Position numbers and translations under genes: made by a program. Source: Anaeropeptidivorans aminofermentans (lineage in GTDB: Bacteria > Bacillota > Clostridia > Lachnospirales > UBA5962). Taken from it: a stretch of DNA of 64,000 bases. Positions 3,518 to 36,543 of this stretch are shown one piece after another (the stretch's first letter is position 1; every line of letters begins with the position of its first letter). Location of the stretch: positions 2,728,001 to 2,792,000 of the forward strand of contig NZ_OW711693.1 of the NCBI RefSeq assembly GCF_940670685.1, given 5' to 3'. Under the pieces are notes generated by a model. It saw only the letters and a list, made by a program, of their open reading frames with translations, was not told where the DNA came from and made no database searches.

Positions 3518-4183
3518 TTATCTTTTGGGCAGAACATTAAAGCGTTCTATAATTTCATCCTCATTTAATTTATACGATAAAGTCATAAGGCTGTCTGTTA
3601 AATGAACATTTTCAAATTTAACACCTGCTTTTTTATCTAAATCAATATGGGAAAAATTCCAAATTCCCTTTACCCCCGAATTGGTGACGATTGCGGCAAC
3701 CTCTTTTGCATTCGCCTTGGGGAGCGCCAAAACAGCTATGTCTATAGGATTATTTTTAAGATAATCAGGAAGAGTATCAACATCTCTTACTTCAATGCCC
3801 CTTATGGTCATGCCGATAAGCTTTGGATTAATGTCAAAAAGCGCTTTGAAATAAAAGCCCCGTCTTTCAAAATTAACGTAATTGGCCAAGGCCTGGCCTA
3901 TATTTCCGGCCCCTATTATCACTATGGAATATTCCTTGTCAAGACCAAGTATCTTCTTGATTTCATTATACAAAAGCTCCACATTATACCCATAGCCCTG
4001 CTGGCCGAAGCAGCCGAAATTATTAAGGTCCTGCCTGATTTGAGATGCGGTTATATTCATTTTATTAGAAAGTTCCTTTGAAGAAATCCGCGTAATTCCA
4101 TTATCAAGTAAATCTCCCAAATATCTGTAGTACCTCGGGAGCCTTTTAATAACTGCAAGAGATACCGATTTTGAATTGTCCAT
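3518..4183 (-). CDS. rex: redox-sensing transcriptional repressor Rex
   Basis: A 221-residue protein matching Rex over its full length. The N-terminal winged helix (residues about 1-80) includes RLPRYYRYL and the recognition segment SSKELSNKMNITASQIRQDL. The Rossmann domain has GAGNIGQALANY for NAD(H) binding, and a C-terminal helix is swapped in the dimer. In Firmicutes Rex represses fermentation and respiration genes when the NADH/NAD+ ratio is low. The gene is monocistronic here, with a strong terminator after it and a long divergent spacer toward the ABC-F gene. The ATG at 4183 follows a GGGAGG-type ribosome-binding site. Confidence 0.97.
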   Translation of the reverse strand: MDNSKSVSLAVIKRLPRYYRYLGDLLDNGITRISSKELSNKMNITASQIRQDLNNFGCFGQQGYGYNVELLYNEIKKILGLDKEYSIVIIGAGNIGQALANYVNFERRGFYFKALFDINPKLIGMTIRGIEVRDVDTLPDYLKNNPIDIAVLALPKANAKEVAAIVTNSGVKGIWNFSHIDLDKKAGVKFENVHLTDSLMTLSYKLNEDEIIERFNVLPKR

Positions 4184-4869
4184 TTTTTTCCTCCCGATAA
4201 TACCTGCCTATAGCATATTTATAAACTGCCAAAGCGGTATTTTATAGAATAAAAATAAAATTTCATGTATAAAAAGCTAAGATCTTTATTTTTCATACTT
4301 AAAATTTTATTGCTTTGAACCAGAAATACATAGTTCTTAGGCCTGCAAACATGCCTTGGAACGTACTTGAAATAATAGGAGTTTTAAAAATCTTCATACT
4401 ATTCGCTATTGCAAATTAAATTAATATTTATAGAAAATTGAGTAATAGCATTCTCCTATACTGTATAGTATAATTTTTCAATAAATTTTTGTCAATCTTT
4501 TATGATAAATTAACAATCCCTTTATTAGACTCGGTTTTTCTGTTATTATGTATAGTGTGATTGAATTTAAATGAAATAGCAGCATTGTCAATTTGTTTTT
4601 CTCATATTTTATGCTCTCTAAAGCCAAATACTTACAGCGGTATAAAAACAAATCGACTATAAGCCTTAAGTTTAATAAAATTTGTTATTATTTTTATCAG
4701 TGCAAATGAATAATAAAACAAATGAATAAATGCTGCAAAAAATGTAGTGTTTCCTAAGAAAAGCCGTGTTTTCAAATCATAGAGAATAGTCTTTATGACT
4801 GCTTTGTTTTACTATAATTAATTTAATTTTCAGCTTAAATCAAGCTGATTGAATATAATCGGAGGAAAT
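4184..4869. other. intergenic region between rex and the ABC-F gene
   Basis: Very AT-rich spacer of 686 bp between divergent genes, without a convincing coding frame. It holds a repeat of family B (about 4586-4661), a small TATACTgtATAGTATA palindrome near 4459-4475, and presumably the promoters of both flanking genes, none of which I can place with confidence. Confidence 0.6.
4586..4661. repeat. family B palindromic repeat, copy B1
   Basis: Begins TCAATTTGTTTTTCTCATA and ends GGTATAAAAACAAATCGACT. The ends are inverted repeats of each other (CAATTTGTTTTT versus AAAAACAAATCG), and related copies occur at 13452, 37956 and 53170. Confidence 0.7.
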
Positions 4870-6759
4870 ATGGTTCTCTCATGTAAAAATGTATCAAAAG
4901 CTTTTGTTACAGACGTAGTCTTAGATAATATCAGCTTTCATCTTGAAGATAATGATAAAATGGCCATCGTAGGCGTTAATGGTGCCGGTAAAACTACCCT
5001 TTTGAGAATTATTACCGGTGAAATGGTGGCGGACAGCGGTGAGATTTATATTAGAAACGGCGCAAAAATGGGCTATATGTCCCAGCTTTTTGAAATGAAT
5101 CCTGAAAACACTGTTGAGGAGGAGCTTACTTCCGTATTTACGGAGCTTATCGCCCTTGAAAAAGAGCTCATGGCCCTTACGGCAAGAATGCCCTCTTTAA
5201 AAGGCAAAGAGCTTGAAGATATTATGAGTGTTTACGACAAAAAGAATTTTATTTTCGAGCAGATGGACGGATATAAATACAAATCAAAAATAAGAGGAAT
5301 TATAAACGGTCTTGCTTTTGACCGTTTCGGAAGCTTAAAAATAGAAAAACTCTCCGGCGGCCAGAAAACTCAGGTAGCCCTTGGCAAGCTTCTTTTAAGC
5401 GAGCCTGATTTGCTCCTTCTGGACGAGCCTACAAACCATCTGGATATAGAGTCGGTAAAATGGCTTGAGGACTTTTTAAGGGCTTATGAAAAGGCTCTTA
5501 TCGTCGTTTCCCATGACAGATATTTCTTAAACCGTATCGTGGGAAAGGTATTTGAAATAGAAAATACCCACGGCTTTATGTATAAGGGCAATTATTCTTT
5601 TTATGCAAAGGAAAAGGAGCTTATACGCCAAAGCCAGCTTAAAAGATATATAGACCAGCAGAAAATAATTAAAAAGCAGGAGGAATCCATTAAGCTCCTC
5701 CGCTCCTTCAATAGAGAAAAATCCATTAAGCGGGCCGAAAGCAAGCAGAAATTATTGGATAAAATTGAAAGGGTCGACAGGCCGGAAGACTTGCCCGATA
5801 CCATAAGAATAGACCTAAGCCCTAAAATTCAAAGCGGAAATGATGTTTTATCCGTTCAAGACCTTTCTAAAAGCTTTGGGAATAAGCTTATATTTGAAAA
5901 TGCCTCTTTTGAAATAAAAAAGGGCGAGAAAATTGCTTTGATAGGTCCTAACGGCGTAGGCAAAACAACATTATTCAGAATAATTATGGAAGAGATTTCT
6001 CAAAACTCCGGCTCCATAAAAAAAGGACGGAATGTCATTGCCGGATACTATGACCAAGGCCAGCTTTCCTTAGATGAAAATAAAACCATAATAGAAGAAA
6101 TTTCAGATGCCTACCCCAAGCTTACAATGGGAGAAATCAGAAATGTCCTCGCCGCCTTTGTTTTCACAGGAGATGATGTATTCAAAAAAATATCCGCCCT
6201 TTCCGGCGGTGAAAAGGGCCGTGTCTCCCTTACGAAAATAATGCTTTCCGGTGCAAATTTCCTGCTTCTCGACGAGCCTACAAATCATTTGGATATGTTC
6301 TCAAAGGAAATTCTTGAAGATGCCCTGAAAGGCTATGACGGGACCCTCTTTTTCATATCTCATGACAGATATTTCATCAATGCCTGTGCCGATAGGGTTA
6401 TAGAACTTAATAAGCATTTTACGACCTCTTATCTTGGTAATTATGACTATTATCTTGAAAAGAAAGCGGAGATTTTTTCTTCTGAAAATGCACCCCAGAT
6501 GATTACAGACGCAAAAAAGGATTGGATAGAGAAAAAGGAAGCCGATGCAAGAGACAGAAAGCTTAAAAACCTGATTAAAACCCTTACCAGAAAAATCGAA
6601 GAAACAGAAACCCATATTGATAAACTGAATCAAGAGCTTGAAAAGGACAGCGTAAACACAGATTATGAAAAATCAGCAAAATTGTATAAAGAAATAGAAG
6701 AAAATGAAGAAATTTTACTTGAGTTATACGAAAAGTTAGATAATGCTAATAATTCTTAA
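4870..6759 (+). CDS. ABC-F family ATPase
   Basis: The 629-residue product has two ABC domains and no membrane segment. Domain 1 has Walker A GVNGAGKTT, signature LSGGQKTQVALGK and Walker B DLLLLDEPTNHLD. Domain 2 has GPNGVGKTT, LSGGEKGRVSLTK and NFLLLDEPTNHLD. A charged linker lies between the domains and a coiled-coil tail at the C-terminus. ABC-F proteins bind the ribosomal E site to relieve stalled translation, and some give antibiotic resistance; the architecture is closest to YdiF-type housekeeping members. An upstream in-frame TTG at 4849 exists, but GGAGG at 4861-4865 sits just before the ATG at 4870, so that start is used here. Which antibiotic or stall it addresses, if any, cannot be told. 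Confidence 0.9.
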   Translation: MVLSCKNVSKAFVTDVVLDNISFHLEDNDKMAIVGVNGAGKTTLLRIITGEMVADSGEIYIRNGAKMGYMSQLFEMNPENTVEEELTSVFTELIALEKELMALTARMPSLKGKELEDIMSVYDKKNFIFEQMDGYKYKSKIRGIINGLAFDRFGSLKIEKLSGGQKTQVALGKLLLSEPDLLLLDEPTNHLDIESVKWLEDFLRAYEKALIVVSHDRYFLNRIVGKVFEIENTHGFMYKGNYSFYAKEKELIRQSQLKRYIDQQKIIKKQEESIKLLRSFNREKSIKRAESKQKLLDKIERVDRPEDLPDTIRIDLSPKIQSGNDVLSVQDLSKSFGNKLIFENASFEIKKGEKIALIGPNGVGKTTLFRIIMEEISQNSGSIKKGRNVIAGYYDQGQLSLDENKTIIEEISDAYPKLTMGEIRNVLAAFVFTGDDVFKKISALSGGEKGRVSLTKIMLSGANFLLLDEPTNHLDMFSKEILEDALKGYDGTLFFISHDRYFINACADRVIELNKHFTTSYLGNYDYYLEKKAEIFSSENAPQMITDAKKDWIEKKEADARDRKLKNLIKTLTRKIEETETHIDKLNQELEKDSVNTDYEKSAKLYKEIEENEEILLELYEKLDNANNS

Positions 6760-8413: not shown

Positions 8414-9154
8414 ATGTCAAATCCGCTGCTTAAAATAGATGATCTTCATGCCTTTGTGGAGGATAGGGAAATATTAAAAGGACTTAATCTTACGGTTAAT
8501 ATCGGTGAGGTTCACGTCATTATGGGCCCTAACGGAGCCGGAAAATCCACTTTGGCCAATATTATTATGGGTCACCCGGGCTATGAGGTTTCCGAAGGCA
8601 GTATTACCTTTGAAGGAGAAGATATAACCGAAGAAAAACCTAACGAAAGAGCCAAGAAGGGCCTTTTTCTGTCTTTTCAAAACCCTGAGGAAATCCCCGG
8701 GGTTACTATGGAGAATTTCTTAAGAACTGCCCGTATTGCAATAACCGGTGAAAATGTGAAGGCCTTTGCCTTCCATAAGGAAACGATAGCAAAAATGAAA
8801 GAGCTTGAAATGGATGAAAGCTATGCTTCCCGCTATGTGAATTTAGGTTTTTCCGGCGGCGAAAGAAAGAAAAGCGAAATTTTTCAAATGCTTATGCTGA
8901 ATCCTAAACTTGCAATCTTGGATGAAACCGATTCCGGCCTTGACGTAGATGCCGTTAAAATTGTTTCTTCCGGCGTAAACAAATTTAAGAATGAAAATAA
9001 CGCTATCATTATAATTACCCACAATACGAAAATTCTTGATCAGCTCCATGCAGACTTTGTTCATATACTCATGGACGGAAAAATCGTTAAAACCGGCGGA
9101 ATAGAATTAATCGATAAAATTAATGAATCCGGCTATGTGTCCTTAGAGAGGTGA
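8414..9154 (+). CDS. sufC: Fe-S cluster assembly ATPase SufC
   Basis: A 246-residue cytosolic ABC ATPase. It shows Walker A GPNGAGKST, a Q-loop in LSFQNPEEIPG, signature FSGGERKKSE and Walker B LAILDETDSGLD; the DETDSGLD form is diagnostic of SufC. It energises the SufBCD scaffold on which iron-sulfur clusters are built. It is first in a five-gene operon sufC-B-D-S-U. The ATG follows AGAGGTG. Confidence 0.97.
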   Translation: MSNPLLKIDDLHAFVEDREILKGLNLTVNIGEVHVIMGPNGAGKSTLANIIMGHPGYEVSEGSITFEGEDITEEKPNERAKKGLFLSFQNPEEIPGVTMENFLRTARIAITGENVKAFAFHKETIAKMKELEMDESYASRYVNLGFSGGERKKSEIFQMLMLNPKLAILDETDSGLDVDAVKIVSSGVNKFKNENNAIIIITHNTKILDQLHADFVHILMDGKIVKTGGIELIDKINESGYVSLER

Positions 9155-9161
9155 TTGGATA

Positions 9162-10568
9162 ATGGAAAAGAAAAAGACCTTTGTAGAGGATATAGATAGA
9201 GAGCTTCTGGATTTAAAAAATTCCGATACCGAGAGCTTTAAAATTAAAAAAGGTCTTACGAAGGAAATCGTAAGAGAAATATCTTCAATTAAAAACGAAC
9301 CTGAATGGATGCTTGATATAAGGCTTAAATCCCTTGAGGTTTATAATCATACGCTCATGCCTAAATGGGGTCCTTCCCTTCATGAGCTTAATATGGATAA
9401 TATCATAACCTACGTTAGCCCTAAAACCTCTATGAAAGGAAACTGGGACGAGGTTCCCGAGGACATTAAGGCTACCTTTGAGCGCCTTGGAATTCCAGAG
9501 GCAGAGAAAAAGTCTCTTGCAGGCGTAGGCGCCCAGTATGATTCAGAGGTGGTTTACCACAGCATAAAAGAAGAGCTTACAAAGCAGGGAGTCATCTATA
9601 CAGATATGGAAACTGCCGTAAGGGAATATGAGCCCATGATAAAGGAATATTTTATGAAGCTCCTTCCCCCTACGTCTCATAAGTTCGTGGCCCTTCACGG
9701 GGCTGTATGGTCCGGCGGTTCCTTCGTATACGTTCCCCAGGGAATTGATGTGAAAATCCCTCTCCAGTCTTATTTCAGGTTTAATTCTCCCGGCGCAGGG
9801 CAATTTGAGCATACCCTTATTATTGTTGACAAAGGTGCAAAGCTTCATTTTATAGAAGGCTGTTCTGCCCCTAAATATAACACCATAAACCTTCATGCAG
9901 GCGCCGTGGAGCTTTACGTAAAAGACGAAGCCACTTTAAGATATTCCACCATAGAAAACTGGTCCAAAAACATGATGAATCTGAATACAAAAATAGCCGA
10001 AGTGGGCAAAAACGCCCGCATGGAATGGGTATCAGGTACCTTCGGCTCTCATATAACCATGCTTTATCCTTCCAGTGTTCTGAAAGGCGAAGGAGCGAAA
10101 ACAGAATTTACAGGGGTAAGCTTTGCCTCTAAAGGGCAAGTTCTCGATACTGGAACGAAGGTTATTCATGCGGCCCCTAATACTTCCTCAACCATAAGCT
10201 CCCGTTCTATTTCAAAAGACGGCGGAGTAGCTATATATAGAAGCTCCGTCAATGTTATGCCGGAAGCTCACAATGTAAAATCCACCGTAAGCTGTGAGTC
10301 TCTTATGATGGATTCTATATCCCGCTCCGACACTCTTCCCGTTATGGATATAAGAAACGACGAAGTGGATATGGGCCATGAAGCAAAAATAGGCCGTATT
10401 TCCGAAGAAGCCATATTTTATTTGATGACGAGAGGGCTTTCGGAAGAAGAAGCGAAGGCTATGATCGTCCGCGGATTTGTTGAGCCGATTACAAAAGAGC
10501 TTCCTTTGGAATATGCGGTGGAAATGAATAATTTAATTTCAATAGAGCTTGAAGGAAGCATTGGCTAA
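9162..10568 (+). CDS. sufB: Fe-S cluster scaffold protein SufB
   Basis: 468 residues, the usual SufB length. Characteristic segments include MPKWGPSLHELN, PQGIDVKIPLQSYFR, FIEGCSAPKY (a conserved Cys in the scaffold), and the C-terminal GRISEEAIFYLMTRGLSEEEAKAMIVRGF helix-turn typical of SufB/SufD. It forms the SufBC2D complex with its neighbours and receives sulfur from SufS via SufU. It starts 7 nt after sufC stops, behind GAGAGGTGATT. Confidence 0.97.
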   Translation: MEKKKTFVEDIDRELLDLKNSDTESFKIKKGLTKEIVREISSIKNEPEWMLDIRLKSLEVYNHTLMPKWGPSLHELNMDNIITYVSPKTSMKGNWDEVPEDIKATFERLGIPEAEKKSLAGVGAQYDSEVVYHSIKEELTKQGVIYTDMETAVREYEPMIKEYFMKLLPPTSHKFVALHGAVWSGGSFVYVPQGIDVKIPLQSYFRFNSPGAGQFEHTLIIVDKGAKLHFIEGCSAPKYNTINLHAGAVELYVKDEATLRYSTIENWSKNMMNLNTKIAEVGKNARMEWVSGTFGSHITMLYPSSVLKGEGAKTEFTGVSFASKGQVLDTGTKVIHAAPNTSSTISSRSISKDGGVAIYRSSVNVMPEAHNVKSTVSCESLMMDSISRSDTLPVMDIRNDEVDMGHEAKIGRISEEAIFYLMTRGLSEEEAKAMIVRGFVEPITKELPLEYAVEMNNLISIELEGSIG

Positions 10569-10579
10569 GGAGGTTTCTT

Positions 10580-11674
10580 ATGAATCAAGCATTTACAAAT
10601 ATAAATGAAATACCCGTTAAAACCTGGAGTTGGCTGAAAGTAAATTCCGCAACCATAAAGGGAAATATTCCTTTTATATCAAGCTATTTGAAAAATCCTG
10701 TGGAAAAGCTTCCGGAAGGAATAGAGCTTCAGCCGGTGGAGCAGTATGACCCCCATTTAAACGAGGGAATGCCTGTATCAACGGTAAAAAAAGAGCTTCT
10801 GGACTTTACAAAGGAAAATAGAAACAGCGGATACTTTATCCGTATCCCGGAAAACTTTAAATCGGAAGAACCTCTGATTTTATCCTATGAGCTTAACGAC
10901 AGCTACCCTACTTTGGTTGACGATACTTTTATTCTTGCGGAAAAAGATAGCTGTGCAACAGTAATTATAATATATAAGGCCTCTGGAAATAAGCCCTTCT
11001 TCCATAACGGCATCACAAGGGTTTATGCCGAAAAAGAAGCAGATATTAAACTTATAAAGATTCAGATGCTTAAGGATAATGACATACACTCAGACCATGT
11101 ACTGGGGCATTGTGAAGAAAAGGGAAATATAGAAATCATCCTTTCAGAGCTTGGTGGAAAGGAAGCTGTAGGAAGCTGTTCCATTGACCTTTTAGGCGAG
11201 AAAAGCCGGGGTGAGCTTAGTACAATTTACCTTGGCGATAAAGACAGGGAGCTTGATATGAACTACCGTATCACCCATTACGGCAAAAATTCCGAAAGTG
11301 AAATTCATTCAAGAGGCGTTCTGAAAGACAGAACAAGAAAGGTTTTCAGAGGAACCATTGATTTTATAAGCGGCGCATCAGGCTCCAAGGGCAGCGAAGA
11401 AGAACATACCATTCTTTTAAGCCCCAATATTAAAAATATCTCTACGCCTTTGCTTTTATGCGGAGAAGCAGATGTTGAAGGCGCCCACGCCGCAAGCACG
11501 GGCAAGCTTGATGAAAATATGCTTTTTTATCTTATGACAAGGGGATTAAGCGAAAAGGATGCAAGAAAAATCATGGTAGAAGCGTCCTTTGCTCCTGTGA
11601 TTGAAAAAATTACATTAGACAGTCTGAAAGAGACCCTTTCTTCTTATGTAAGGGGGAAATTGGATTATGAATAA
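10580..11674 (+). CDS. sufD: Fe-S cluster assembly protein SufD
   Basis: 364 residues, homologous to SufB over the beta-helix core. It carries the C-terminal signature ENMLFYLMTRGLSEKDARKIMVEASFAPVIEKI. SufD pairs with SufB and helps iron entry into the scaffold. A strong AAGGAGG lies 7 nt before the ATG. Its last 8 nt overlap the start of sufS, so the two are translationally coupled. Confidence 0.93.
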   Translation: MNQAFTNINEIPVKTWSWLKVNSATIKGNIPFISSYLKNPVEKLPEGIELQPVEQYDPHLNEGMPVSTVKKELLDFTKENRNSGYFIRIPENFKSEEPLILSYELNDSYPTLVDDTFILAEKDSCATVIIIYKASGNKPFFHNGITRVYAEKEADIKLIKIQMLKDNDIHSDHVLGHCEEKGNIEIILSELGGKEAVGSCSIDLLGEKSRGELSTIYLGDKDRELDMNYRITHYGKNSESEIHSRGVLKDRTRKVFRGTIDFISGASGSKGSEEEHTILLSPNIKNISTPLLLCGEADVEGAHAASTGKLDENMLFYLMTRGLSEKDARKIMVEASFAPVIEKITLDSLKETLSSYVRGKLDYE

Positions 11675-29977: not shown

Positions 29978-30759
29978 GTTGTATACACCTCTTGCCTCTC
30001 TTTAATATTTATTGGTCACATTTAAGTATGAATTTTCAAAAAATAAATTAATACTTATAAAAATACCAATTAAAAAATTCTTAAAAAATATTTATATGTA
30101 TTTTAAACAAACACAAGTGTAAAAGTCAATGGTATTTATAGCATTTCCTGTTTTTTTCTGTATTAATTAAAATTTTTATATTAAAAGCTATAATTTCAAT
30201 CAATTATTCAGCTTTATTAACAATTTATCCATTTCAATTTATCGTTTATATACAAATAAATTAATAATTTTACAATAAACATAGATTAAGTTAATTCAAT
30301 ATTTTACCAATTCAGAATTAATCCTCTATAGCCCCAATGAATTTTATCTGCATTTTTCTATTAAATTTTATTATTTTCTTAATATTCAAATATCAAAGGC
30401 CCAATTTTTTTCATCTTAGAGACGTTTTTTGTATTTTTATTCCTGCGTAGTTGTCTATTGTTCCAAATATTGGTATACTACAAAGATATAATATAATGGT
30501 TTTCTTTTAGATCATAATTTATAAATATACGTTTTAATTAATTTATACTAGGGCGTGTCTATTTTCAGACACAGCCCACAACGTGTTTTGGAACTCCAAA
30601 TCTTAATTTATTTTCTGATTTCAAACACACCCTAAGCAAGCTTAAAAATTTATACAGGCATAAGCTTGTAAGCAGTTTTTCAGGCGAGTGCCTTCTTTAT
30701 AGTTTTTGCCGGATACTTTACTTTAGCTGCATAGCATATTCTAAAATTGGGATGGTATT
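29978..30759. other. long divergent intergenic region
   Basis: 782 bp, extremely AT-rich from 29995 to 30540, with no coding frame. Near 30548-30632 an imperfect inverted repeat runs AGGGCGTGT...ACACACCCT. From 30640 the region has a hairpin related to repeats seen elsewhere (AAGCTT...ATAAGCTTGTAAG). Promoters for the RpiR gene and the EAL gene should lie here, but I cannot place them. Confidence 0.55.
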
Positions 30760-32934
30760 ATGGATTTTTCTGAAAAAATTGAAAGTTATATGAGTAAAAT
30801 AAGTGAATTAAGGGTTTTTATAGCTGTAAGGCGTGGATTTATGCTTATTATTCCGCTGATATTAATAGGGTCCGCGGCTACGGTTATAAACAATTTTCCC
30901 GTTAGCTTCTATCAGGATTTCATGGTTTCTTTCTTTGGAGAAAATTGGACGGATTTCGGCTCTTATTTGTATCAGGCGACCTTTGCCATTATGTCTTTAA
31001 GCCTTGTAATTACAATAAGCTATTCTTACGCAAGCTTAGAGCCCTACAATTCAAGCTATGAATCCAGCCCTCCCATTTCATCGGTTGTATCCCTCATATG
31101 CTTATTTGCTATACTCTATACTGAAAATGATACCGTATCCTTTAGAAACCTAGGCGTAATGGGGGTTTTTATAGCAATCGTCACAGCCCTTGTTTCTTCT
31201 TTTTTATTTACATTACTATTGAAAATACAGGCAATAAAGCTCCATATTGACAGCAACGCCTCCGATCCTAACGTAAGCATGGTTTTTGCTTCTCTTTTTC
31301 CTGCCGCAATAACTGTATGCCTATTTATATCTTTTCGGATAACGCTTTCTAGAATCGGCATAGAAAATATTCATGAATCTTTTTATAAAAGCTTTGAAAG
31401 CATATTCTTCGAACCCGAATCCTCTTTGAAAAACGCATTGGTGTTTATTACTCTTATTCACTCGCTATGGTTTTTAGGCATCCATGGAAGCAATATGCTG
31501 GAATCTGTTACTCAGTCGGTATTTGTTCCCTGCCTTCAAAGCAATATAGAACTTGTAGCATCAGGGCAGGCTCCGGTACATATATTTACAAAGGAATTTT
31601 TTGACATATTTGTTCTCATGGGCGGCTCCGGCACTACCCTTTGCCTTGTAGTAGCTTTTCTTTTACGCTCAAGAAAAAGTAATGCGCAAAACGTAAGCGT
31701 ATTTTCGTTATTTCCGGGGCTTTTTAATATTAATGAGTCCATGCTTTTCGGAATCCCTGTGGTTTTAAATTTTTATCTTCTCATTCCCTTTATTCTTACC
31801 CCTATCGTCCTTACGCTCATAACCTACGGCGCAATGTCCATAGGCCTTGTTCCCCTTGTAACCTCAAGCGTTCAGTGGACAACCCCTATATTCTTAGGCG
31901 GATATAAGGCTACAGGCTCTTTGGCAGGCGCACTTTTACAAGGGGTAAACTTCATTATCGGCGTTATGATATATCTTCCCTTTGTCAAAATAAACGAAGA
32001 AAGTACTTTGAAAAAAAATAAACTCATTATAAACTCTCTTATTGATTTAGCTCTTGAAAGGCAGGATGGCATTTCGAGAAACCTCATCCAAAGAAAAGAC
32101 GCCATCGGCAGCCTTGCAAGAAACCTATCTGTAGATTTAAGACAGGATATGATAAAAGGAACCGGTCTGTGGCTTGAATACCAGCCGAAGATCAATTACG
32201 AAGGGAACGTCGTAGGCATTGAGGCCCTTTTAAGATGGAAGCACCGATTATTTGGATTGCTCCCGCCGCCTCTTGCCATAGCCCTTGCAGAAGACAGAGA
32301 GTTTATCCATCTTTTAGGGGGCTGGATATTTGAAGAAGCTTGCAAACAGCTTAAATCCTGGGAGGAGCAGGGACTGAAGGACGTCACTCTTTCCGTTAAT
32401 ATTTCTCCTTTACAGATGGATAAAAATATAATAATATCTCAATTTGACGGCATAACAAAGAAATTTGGTATAAAGCCCCATAATATAGAAATAGAAATCA
32501 CAGAACAAGCTGCATTAAATCAAATCCGGTCCGCCCTTGAAATCATCGGAAAACTGAAGGAAATGGGCTTTAAAATAGCTATAGATGATTTTGGCATGGG
32601 GCATACCTCTCTTGTGATTCTTAAGGAATTTAGTATCGATACCATTAAAATAGACGGTTCTCTCGTTAAAGATATGATGAATCATAATAGCAGCAGAGAC
32701 ATTATATCTTCAATTGTATACCTTGCCCGTAAAAGCAATTTTTCCGTCGTGGCAGAATATGTCCAGACGGAACAGCAAAGGGACCTTCTTCATTCTTTAG
32801 GCTGTGACATATACCAAGGCTGGCTTTACAGCAAGGCCCTCATGCCGGAAGCGCTTTTTGACTATTATATCCGCTCATTAGAAATAACAGGAAACCTTTC
32901 AAAGGAATATATAAAAGCATCTTCTGCAAAATAA
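30760..32934 (+). CDS. PTS EIIC-like membrane domain fused to an EAL c-di-GMP phosphodiesterase
   Basis: 724 residues. Residues about 1-420 resemble the lactose/cellobiose-type EIIC permease (IAVRRGFMLIIPLILIGSAATVINNFP near the start, eight or more helices, WFLGIHGSNML, GGSGTTLCL, NINESMLFGIPVVLNFYLLIPF). The EAL domain spans about 455-705. Catalytic residues are all present: EALLRW (E488), VNIS (N547), EITE (E579), DDFG (D609, D610), K630 in IKIDGSLV, and E666 in VVAEYV. It should therefore hydrolyse c-di-GMP. No EIIA or EIIB gene is adjacent, so the EIIC part may sense a sugar rather than transport it. It is monocistronic with its own terminator. Confidence 0.9.
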   Translation: MDFSEKIESYMSKISELRVFIAVRRGFMLIIPLILIGSAATVINNFPVSFYQDFMVSFFGENWTDFGSYLYQATFAIMSLSLVITISYSYASLEPYNSSYESSPPISSVVSLICLFAILYTENDTVSFRNLGVMGVFIAIVTALVSSFLFTLLLKIQAIKLHIDSNASDPNVSMVFASLFPAAITVCLFISFRITLSRIGIENIHESFYKSFESIFFEPESSLKNALVFITLIHSLWFLGIHGSNMLESVTQSVFVPCLQSNIELVASGQAPVHIFTKEFFDIFVLMGGSGTTLCLVVAFLLRSRKSNAQNVSVFSLFPGLFNINESMLFGIPVVLNFYLLIPFILTPIVLTLITYGAMSIGLVPLVTSSVQWTTPIFLGGYKATGSLAGALLQGVNFIIGVMIYLPFVKINEESTLKKNKLIINSLIDLALERQDGISRNLIQRKDAIGSLARNLSVDLRQDMIKGTGLWLEYQPKINYEGNVVGIEALLRWKHRLFGLLPPPLAIALAEDREFIHLLGGWIFEEACKQLKSWEEQGLKDVTLSVNISPLQMDKNIIISQFDGITKKFGIKPHNIEIEITEQAALNQIRSALEIIGKLKEMGFKIAIDDFGMGHTSLVILKEFSIDTIKIDGSLVKDMMNHNSSRDIISSIVYLARKSNFSVVAEYVQTEQQRDLLHSLGCDIYQGWLYSKALMPEALFDYYIRSLEITGNLSKEYIKASSAK

Positions 32935-32941
32935 AATATAC

Positions 32942-32986
32942 AATAACCCCCAAATCTCGGTTAAATAGAGCTTTGGGGGTTATTTA
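32942..32986 (+). terminator. intrinsic terminator of the EIIC-EAL gene
   Basis: AATAACCCCCAAA...TTTGGGGGTTATTTATT, 13-bp stem directly after the stop codon. Confidence 0.85.
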
Positions 32987-34896: not shown

Positions 34897-36543
34897 TTAT
34901 TCTAAAGACAGCTGCTGAAAGTCCGTTTCCTCAGGCAGCAAAAACTTCTTAAAAGCAGTAGGCAGCGATATTTCTGTGTCCAGCTTGTCTTCATCTGCCC
35001 ACAAATAATCACCAAAGGGCTTTTCGCAAGTAATCTTATAACAGCGTATCCGCCACTCTATATGGGTAAAAATATGCTTGCCCTGATTCATATTTCCGAT
35101 ATGGCCCGCTCCCTTCTGCTCCTGAAGCCAATGCTTAACGTCTTCCCTATCTAATTTCCCATATACATTGGGAAGCTCCCACATATCGTGAAGCACCCCT
35201 TTTTCACGCCGTTTTCGAAAGGCAATTTTATTTCCCCAGGTGAGAATAAAGAAAGTAATCTCCTGAACTTCTCTGGCCCTCTTTTCTTTTCTTATGGGTA
35301 AAAGGGAATATCTTTTGCTTTTATATGCTATGCAAATATCTTTCGCGGGGCAGCTTCCGCATTTTGGTTCCCCATTGGGCAGGCAAATGGTGGCCCCCAG
35401 CTCCATGAGACTTTGGGTGAAATCACCGCAGTGCCCTTTAGGATAAATCTCCGCTAATTGCCTGCCTATTTCTTTTTTTGTGTTTTCTTCATCGATACAG
35501 CGGTAATCCTCTGTAATTCTGGATATCACCCGCAATACATTGCCGTCTACTGCCGGCATAGGATAGTCAAAGCAAATGGAAGCAATCGCCCCTGTGGTAT
35601 AAATACCGATACCGGGCAGCTTATTAATTTTAGCAGGATCTTTGGGAAAATTACCGCCGAACTCCGCCATAATATTCTTCGCCGCCTTTTGAAGGTTTCT
35701 TGCTCTGGAATAATACCCCAGGCCTTCCCATAGTTTCAGCACTCTTTCTTCATCGGCATCGGCCAAGGCTTTAATGGTAGGAAACTCCATTAAAAAGCGA
35801 TTATAATAGTCTATCACTGTATCCACTCTGGTTTGCTGAAGCATAATCTCTGAAAGCCATACATGATAAGGGTCCTGGTCTTTCCGCCAAGGTAAATCCC
35901 TGGCGTTTTTTTCATACCATGGCAGCAATCTTTCCGGTAATAATTGATAGTTTCTTTGTTTTTCCGTCATTAACTTAATAACTTGCCTGATATTATCCTC
36001 ATAAATAGGAACCATATCCTCTTCTGAACATAGTTCAGTCAATTTATTAATATCCAGCCATGCAACGCTGCTATTTTCATCCGGTTTAATACTGAGGCGC
36101 TGATTATCAGGACAAATAAAACCGAAAGTTACATTGTGATGATAGTGAAAAGCTACCTTCTTTCCTCTTTTTATATGTTCCGGTACCGGAAGAGACTCAA
36201 CGGACAATAAACTCCTGCTGACAGGATACAATCTCTCTACACCCGTTTCTTCCCGAGCTTCCCTGTAAGCTACTGTATATAAATCCTGTTCCTCGTCAGC
36301 ATGGCCGCCGGTCCATGAATAAGAATTATAGATATTATGATAAACCATCAAGGTTTTATCTAAGCTGGGATTTAATATAATGGCAGATGCAGACATATGG
36401 GCATGCAATGTATCCCTTGAATATAATCTTTCTCCGTATTGCAAAAGCTCGGCTAAAATAAGCTCTTTGCTTTTTTGCTGAAGCTCCGTACGGGGGGTAA
36501 ATTCTTTAATCAAATCTATTATATCCATATTGCTGTCATCCAA
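34897..36543 (-). CDS. mutY: NUDIX hydrolase fused to MutY adenine DNA glycosylase
   Basis: 548 residues. Residues about 45-190 are a NUDIX domain with GGHADEEQ...REAREETGV; the REXXEE core is intact, and the glutamate usually found 8 residues before the REXXEE arginine is Gln. Residues about 200-410 are MutY: LPWR, catalytic E in LSEIMLQQTRVDTVIDYY, catalytic D in LPGIGIYTTGAIASICFDYPMPAVDGNV, and a [4Fe-4S] set C-x7-C-x2-C-x5-C. The last 130 residues are the MutY-type C-terminal recognition domain. MutY removes adenine opposite 8-oxoG; a NUDIX partner could clean oxidised nucleotides. The start is probably TTG at 36543; ATG at 36528 is an alternative with weaker ribosome binding. Confidence 0.9.
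   Translation of the reverse strand: MDDSNMDIIDLIKEFTPRTELQQKSKELILAELLQYGERLYSRDTLHAHMSASAIILNPSLDKTLMVYHNIYNSYSWTGGHADEEQDLYTVAYREAREETGVERLYPVSRSLLSVESLPVPEHIKRGKKVAFHYHHNVTFGFICPDNQRLSIKPDENSSVAWLDINKLTELCSEEDMVPIYEDNIRQVIKLMTEKQRNYQLLPERLLPWYEKNARDLPWRKDQDPYHVWLSEIMLQQTRVDTVIDYYNRFLMEFPTIKALADADEERVLKLWEGLGYYSRARNLQKAAKNIMAEFGGNFPKDPAKINKLPGIGIYTTGAIASICFDYPMPAVDGNVLRVISRITEDYRCIDEENTKKEIGRQLAEIYPKGHCGDFTQSLMELGATICLPNGEPKCGSCPAKDICIAYKSKRYSLLPIRKEKRAREVQEITFFILTWGNKIAFRKRREKGVLHDMWELPNVYGKLDREDVKHWLQEQKGAGHIGNMNQGKHIFTHIEWRIRCYKITCEKPFGDYLWADEDKLDTEISLPTAFKKFLLPEETDFQQLSLE

Follow-up and report, generated by a model that had tools for sequence, protein, structure and literature searches.

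In the genome of Anaeropeptidivorans aminofermentans, one gene joins the membrane domain of a PTS sugar permease (EIIC) to an EAL domain, and the question that it raises is whether the product imports a sugar, reports on one, or does both. The gene lies in the 64,000-nucleotide stretch of DNA analysed here (the window), where it forms an intact single ORF that opens with ATG and encodes 724 amino acids:

30760..32934, + strand: EIIC-EAL fusion gene (ORF, domain matches and AlphaFold2 model)
30787..32019, + strand: Lac/cellobiose-type EIIC membrane domain, about aa 10-420 (TIGR00410; 3qnq by sequence and by fold)
32143..32835, + strand: predicted EAL phosphodiesterase domain, aa 462-692 (PF00563; fold match to 8arv)

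The first-pass annotation of this DNA had recognised an EIIC permease domain and an EAL domain in one ORF, and searches against Pfam, NCBIfam and the PDB bear this out. Pfam places PTS_EIIC at aa 24-348 (122.5 bits, cut-off 30.7) and EAL (PF00563) at aa 462-692 (204.1 bits, cut-off 31.3), while the NCBIfam profile TIGR00410, of the lacE subfamily, covers aa 12-421 of the EIIC part with 281.4 bits against a cut-off of 236. By sequence, the best PDB matches are ChbC (3qnq; aa 10-418, E 6.6e-67) for the EIIC half and the EAL domain of BifA (8arv; aa 455-703) for the EAL half. An AlphaFold2 model of the protein, built from 23 sequences, reached a mean pLDDT of 84.2 and a pTM of 0.73, and Foldseek ranked 3qnq first against it (E 1e-20), with EAL structures next. 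Superposition with VIA-align gave a Z of 33.8 and an rmsd of 1.6 over 254 aligned residues for 8arv, and a Z of 28.1 with an rmsd of 10.3 over 373 aligned residues for 3qnq; this high Z combined with a large rmsd would fit two bodies that are placed differently in the model, as in another elevator state. Taken together with the genome-wide lack of Lac partners described below, the domain matches indicate that the EIIC-EAL fusion is no chance match.

Close inspection of the EAL half points to an active enzyme. The alignment contains all seven core residues (E488, N547, E579, D609, D610, K630 and E666), which form the catalytic/metal set of these domains. An AEYV stretch stands where the usual form is AEGV, with Y or F at position 667 in 58 of 67 aligned fusions. 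The initial claim that every catalytic EAL residue is present thus holds for these seven but not for the position of RocR E355, the second Glu of the ExxE pair, which is Glu in 65 of the 67 fusions:

32764..32766, + strand: Q669, at the RocR E355 position (alignment of 67 fusions)

In TBD1265, mutation of the equivalent second Glu (E706) had no reported effect (PMC12943098). Activity of the Q669 protein is therefore to be expected, and since the second Glu is reportedly dispensable in TBD1265, it is not a defining feature and its replacement is not taken to exclude an EAL phosphodiesterase; judging from its residues, the fusion EAL is expected to hydrolyse c-di-GMP. The loop-6 stretch reads DDFGMGHTS, with M613 found in 63 of the 67 fusions, as compared with the usual DFG(T/A)GYSS (PMC12943098). 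All seven core residues are retained in 64 of the 67 fusions. The three exceptions (L047-L049), from one genus of the same order, have degenerate EAL domains that lack one or more catalytic residues, and their EIICs also lack the sugar-contacting Glu; this joint decay fits a coupled loss in the sequences compared, but it occurred in one clade only.

The surroundings of the gene contain no sign of a sugar operon. Upstream and divergent lie an RpiR regulator and then genes for an M20 peptidase, for an oligopeptide transporter (SBP5, two permeases and two ATPases) and for an amidohydrolase; downstream, azlD and azlC converge on the fusion gene. The earlier statement that no EIIA, EIIB or sugar-utilisation genes are adjacent is accurate, as the genes adjoining the fusion, RpiR and AzlD/AzlC, include no PTS or sugar-utilisation gene. 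The nutrient link that had been suggested with the RpiR cluster is unsupported, its members being an oligopeptide ABC transporter, an M20 peptidase and an amidohydrolase. Between the fusion gene and azlD there is one further element:

32942..32984, + strand: 17-nt inverted repeat separating the fusion gene from the convergent azlD (arms 94% complementary, 9 nt between them)

From its sequence this repeat is probably a terminator shared by the two genes; it is absent from the list returned by the terminator scan. The fusion gene looks like a single transcription unit, because the divergent RpiR cluster bounds it upstream and the convergent azlD/azlC pair and the inverted repeat bound it downstream. 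The DNA 5' of the gene (30000-30759) is AT-rich (GC 0.265 over 30000-30999) and holds several promoter-like matches. A regulatory RNA for the fusion gene was considered and rejected, as Rfam found no riboswitch or other element near it and a tRNA was its only match in the window. Further downstream, one ORF on the - strand (34897-36543) encodes, from N to C terminus, a NUDIX domain, a MutY-like HhH-GPD domain and NUDIX_4 and is, by these domain assignments, a MutT-like and MutY fusion.

A sugar imported by a Lac-type EIIC is phosphorylated with the help of Lac-type partners, and the host genome, complete in one contig of 3.757 Mb, was searched for them. No Lac-type EIIA (PF02255) was found in it, while control profiles matched, and there is no credible Lac-type EIIB (TIGR00853): the sole match is weak (E 4.7e-5), falls below the family cut-off and lies on the EIIB of another PTS (L011). 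The genome encodes five PF02302 EIIBs, which are of the fructose type (L009) or, where seen, stand beside galactitol- or ascorbate-like PTS genes (names assigned by eye), and HPr is represented by four matches above the cut-off. Its three PF02378 EIICs are the fusion itself, a 486-aa EIIC-containing protein that adjoins a putative murQ (again named by eye) and a fructose-type EIIC accompanied by its own IIA and IIB. Five EAL proteins, at least two of them with GGDEF, indicate that a c-di-GMP network exists in the host.

To place these findings in a broader context, we turned to relatives of the protein. None of the six other genomes of the family group holds a full-length fusion at E 1e-30, and 27 of 392 genomes of the order, the host included, contain a match at E <=1e-60; nearly all of these are full-length EIIC-EAL proteins with 30-40% identity (three rows, L040, L048 and L049, begin a few codons upstream of the start codon). 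A wider contig search produced at least 42 loci (L052-L093) that match both domains, among 80 listed of 582 confirmed candidates. The first-pass annotation had described similar fusions as reported in some clostridia, where they do occur, but that range was too narrow: among the matches listed, full-length relatives come from at least five phyla (Bacillota, Synergistota, Spirochaetota, Thermodesulfobacteriota and Pseudomonadota). Gut bacteria are among the carriers, including Clostridioides difficile, whose protein (WP_003435700.1; 39.5% identical across 96% of the query length) is on a record filed as a plasmid and is annotated only as 'EAL domain-containing protein'.

The lack of partners recurs across these genomes. 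The comparison covered 40 fusion-bearing genomes, made up of 24 of the 27 order genomes with matches (the three with a degenerate EAL were left out) and of 16 of the 42 loci of the wider search. EIIA-Lac (PF02255) was present in six of the 40 and lacking in 34, as against 37 of 37 control genomes that hold a stand-alone EIIC and no fusion (Fisher p 8e-16, a value to be read in the light of related genomes not being independent). The TIGR00853 EIIB, at E <1e-15, occurs in the same six, and three further fusion genomes, the host included, have weak matches alone (E 4e-7 to 4e-4). Among the 24 order genomes, searched for both EIIA and stand-alone EIIC, EIIA occurs in four, the very ones in which a stand-alone EIIC is also present. 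In four of the six EIIA-positive genomes (those covered by the stand-alone EIIC search, which left aside G392 and G404), the genes for EIIA and EIIB are found within a few kb of a stand-alone EIIC, on a contig other than that of the fusion.

Phylogeny separates the fused EIICs from the transporters. Three trees, all of them 'quick' trees with midpoint roots, divided stand-alone from fused EIICs by one branch: 25 from 67 in tree 1 (SH-aLRT 96), 40 from 59, the latter from five phyla, in tree 2 (SH-aLRT 100), and 39 from 60 rows in tree 3 (SH-aLRT 99), which added the most difficult cases, among them a Listeria transporter with 37% identity to the query. Most of the stand-alone EIICs come from Clostridia, and both sets consist largely of Bacillota. 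Tree 1 was built without L048, L053, L060 and L070 (short, same contig twice or fragment) and without the window's own copy; tree 2 dropped 27 earlier rows (long, degenerate, duplicate or near-identical), and tree 3 six more. A single conversion of an EIIC into a receptor appears to be the simplest reading of these trees, and only that, because their roots are midpoint roots.

A comparison of conservation reveals which parts of the EIIC fold were given up and which were kept. The positions concerned are:

31240..31287, + strand: cytoplasmic TM4-TM5 loop segment, aa 161-176, transporter motif lost (conservation comparison)
31402..31404, + strand: aa 215, where the amphipathic helix joining the scaffold to the transport domain ends (conservation comparison)
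31483..31485, + strand: H242, equivalent of the sugar-contacting H250 of ChbC (alignment with 3qnq)
31735..31740, + strand: E326 (equivalent of the sugar-contacting E334 of ChbC), kept, followed by S327 in place of the transporters' Pro (conservation comparison)

In 40 stand-alone EIICs, 35 positions are conserved at 90% or more. Eight of these fall below 25% in 59 fused ones; six of the eight lie within aa 161-176 (Fisher p 1.7e-5 for the clustering) and the other two are 215 and 327. Written as a regular expression, the loop motif, which was defined in this analysis from the very sequences compared, matches 41 of 42 stand-alone rows and none of 84 fused ones (two of which, L053 and L060, come from the same contigs as L026 and L030), and a similar pattern is present in 3/3 stand-alone and 0/3 fused proteins added after the motif was defined. 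The model helices, together with the known N-in topology, assign aa 155-169 to the cytoplasmic TM4-TM5 loop, which in a related EIIC extends to the neighbouring protomer's transport domain (PMC12900739). Position 215 is Ile here, Pro in all 40 stand-alone EIICs and Pro in 8 of the 59 fused ones. The hinge of IICB-Glc is a double proline in the linker between TM5 and the amphipathic helix (PMC11393339), which may not be the same proline as P215. The sugar contacts are retained: His occupies the 242 position in 57/59 fused and 38/40 stand-alone EIICs and Glu the 326 position in 59/59 and 40/40, their ChbC counterparts, H250 and E334, being contacts common to the superfamily (PMC11393339 and PMC8193941). 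The Pro directly after the pocket Glu (327) is found in 38/40 stand-alone and 6/59 fused EIICs. The first-pass annotation had also spoken of EIIC residues for phosphotransfer, a wording that needs correction: an EIIC itself lacks a phosphotransfer residue, and the phosphate is supplied by EIIB (PMC11393339). Overall, on the sequences aligned, the fused EIICs are a lineage separate from the transporters, in which the sugar contacts were kept and transporter-only positions lost.

The output attached to this lineage is not always an EAL domain. In one relative (L050, genome G115; 782 aa) the EIIC is followed by an MCP signalling domain; the protein is 35% identical to that of the window over EIIC and linker (BLASTP) and groups with the fused rows in trees 1 and 2 as drawn. 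Its gene belongs to a cluster with EAL, HD_5, hemerythrin, CheW-receiver and two further MCP genes:

L152, 6496-8841, - strand: EIIC-MCP gene and its chemotaxis/c-di-GMP cluster (neighbour-gene scan)

The EIIC is therefore carried on two kinds of signalling output. L050 is a single case, with no further EIIC-MCP fusion in 391 genomes of the class; a second candidate, L174, was rejected as actually a stand-alone EIIC followed in frame by EIIA-like sequence. The scan of neighbouring genes in other genomes (90 of the 112 nearest flanking ORFs at 58 loci, the 22 omitted including very long or overlapping ORFs) found GGDEF in seven of the 90 ORFs and no PTS or glycosidase family that was matched two or more times among the 25 commonest of 131 families, so that a conserved neighbourhood of the sugar type, one of the points initially raised for checking, did not emerge there.

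How the two halves might communicate is suggested by the segment between them:

32020..32157, + strand: helical linker, aa 421-466, with a conserved D..G..AR pattern (alignment, BLASTP and model helices)

The same D..G..AR linker precedes the MCP output of L050. It looked HAMP-like by eye, a reading that the searches did not support: seven linker fragments gave no Pfam HAMP match, and a PDB profile search was likewise free of HAMP, its top matches being designed armadillo repeats. The model has a long helix at 388-435, the last of the EIIC, and a linker helix at 448-466. The C-terminal half of an EIIC is the moving transport domain, and in IICB-Glc the phosphorylating IIB follows IIC at the transport-domain end (PMC11393339). 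In the model, the EAL domain occupies the place that IIB has in IICB-Glc, by way of these two helices. We propose that the EIIC would dimerise through its scaffold domains, as in solved EIICs, and that a sugar would bind the pocket of the transport domain, perhaps a beta-linked disaccharide, because the fold is of the lactose/cellobiose/chitobiose type. Binding would move the transport domain relative to the scaffold, and this movement, relayed through helices 388-435 and 448-466, could change how the two EAL domains of the dimer pair or how active they are, and hence c-di-GMP hydrolysis.

From these comparisons we read the protein as a PTS-transporter-derived transmembrane receptor, probably sugar-sensing, that would tune c-di-GMP breakdown by an elevator movement, and we put the probability of this reading at roughly two in three. 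The original proposal of a sugar-transport fold controlling c-di-GMP breakdown thus gains comparative support, namely the distribution of EIIA-Lac (6/40 against 37/37), the lineage split, the loss of the loop motif with the sugar contacts retained, and the EIIC-MCP relative. Among the points against a receptor are the following: the retained H242 and E326 would be equally expected of a passive sugar carrier, HPr and the other-family EIIBs of the host might engage in cross-talk, and Q669 deviates from what is, in the aligned fusions, a near-invariant Glu. One alternative is an uncoupled facilitator or 'transceptor', through which sugar would pass unphosphorylated while the protein signals. Retention of the pocket residues and of most of the helical core favours it, yet the changed positions include those that PMC12900739 and PMC11393339 tie to the moving parts of the elevator, and sugar-use genes neither adjoin the gene nor are common to the scanned flanks of its relatives (25 commonest of 131 families), which leaves this idea unlikely.

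Alternatively, the protein might still transport and phosphorylate sugar as part of a PTS, relying on an EIIB encoded elsewhere in the genome, and the EAL would then only add c-di-GMP control. An intact EIIC fold with its sugar-contact residues, the HPr matches (four above the cut-off), the five other EIIBs of the host and the Lac EIIA and EIIB of 6/40 fusion genomes all favour such a transporter. Against it stand a host with no Lac EIIA or credible EIIB, the 34/40 fusion genomes that have no Lac EIIA, the location of the partners beside a stand-alone EIIC and off the fusion's contig in 4/6 EIIA-positive genomes, and the disappearance of a loop motif found in 41/42 stand-alone EIICs; we consider this explanation quite improbable, and net sugar uptake with phosphorylation by the fusion protein unlikely. 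Control could also run in the reverse direction, the EAL mainly binding c-di-GMP and gating the EIIC. Some EAL domains, such as those of FimX and LapD, act as c-di-GMP receptors, and three relatives have degenerate EALs; these three, however, also lack the EIIC Glu, and the full catalytic set of 64/67 fusions argues for an enzyme, so that reversed control seems very improbable. Returning to the receptor, we lean slightly towards a wider proposal, in which one ancient conversion turned a Lac-type EIIC elevator into a dedicated, non-transporting sugar receptor, now present in at least five phyla with exchangeable outputs, mostly c-di-GMP hydrolysis and, in at least one case, chemotaxis.

Ks-Amt5, CbrA and Snf3/Rgt2 are transporter-derived receptors that resemble the fusion in having a transporter fold joined to, or serving as, a signalling module, but they use other transporter folds and other outputs. 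The signals that set the activity of most c-di-GMP enzymes are, to our knowledge, an open question. Since the fold of the sensor domain is solved, its sugar pocket is known and H242, E326 and the loop motif offer simple point tests, the ligand and mechanism of the fusion are directly testable. If the receptor reading is true, the protein would be a clean example of a transporter turned receptor, the pocket kept and the partner-facing parts dropped, and annotation of such proteins as PTS permeases or phosphoreceiver domains would have to end.

The PTS Lac-family EIICs (ChbC, CelB; 3qnq) share with the fusion their fold, a TIGR00410 score above the cut-off and the sugar-contact His and Glu, whereas the fusion has an EAL, no cognate EIIA/EIIB and its own tree branch, and is without the TM4-TM5 loop motif and two further prolines. 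In Vibrio cholerae, EIIA-Glc and PdeS let sugar status govern a c-di-GMP phosphodiesterase (PMC6877527), as is proposed for the fusion; there it is the phosphorylation state of a soluble EIIA, here a membrane EIIC built into the enzyme. The EIIC-EAL architecture itself is already in print: PMC8846402 lists PTS_EIIC among the domains of c-di-GMP enzymes, but terms the domain a phosphoreceiver, whereas the present results argue for a lineage that has no phosphotransfer partners. No study of an EIIC-EAL protein was found in the literature searched, in which subscription papers were mostly beyond reach; as far as that literature goes, the comparison of partners, the split into two lineages, the lost motif and the EIIC-MCP relative are new.

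Several relatives have features of their own. In Duganella radicis (L090) there are two EIIC-EAL copies (3542-5686 and 9062-11551, both +), and the large protein encoded between them has a C-terminal sequence that is GGDEF-like by eye. At four loci from rumen Lachnospiraceae (L082, L083, L084 and L089) a large ORF ends 0-3 bp 5' of the EIIC-EAL gene, the one in L083 encoding a 7TM hybrid histidine kinase. Finally, two divergent EIIC-EAL proteins of marine Proteobacteria (L210 and L211, from Tritonibacter and Pseudoalteromonas) have NISE replacing NINE.
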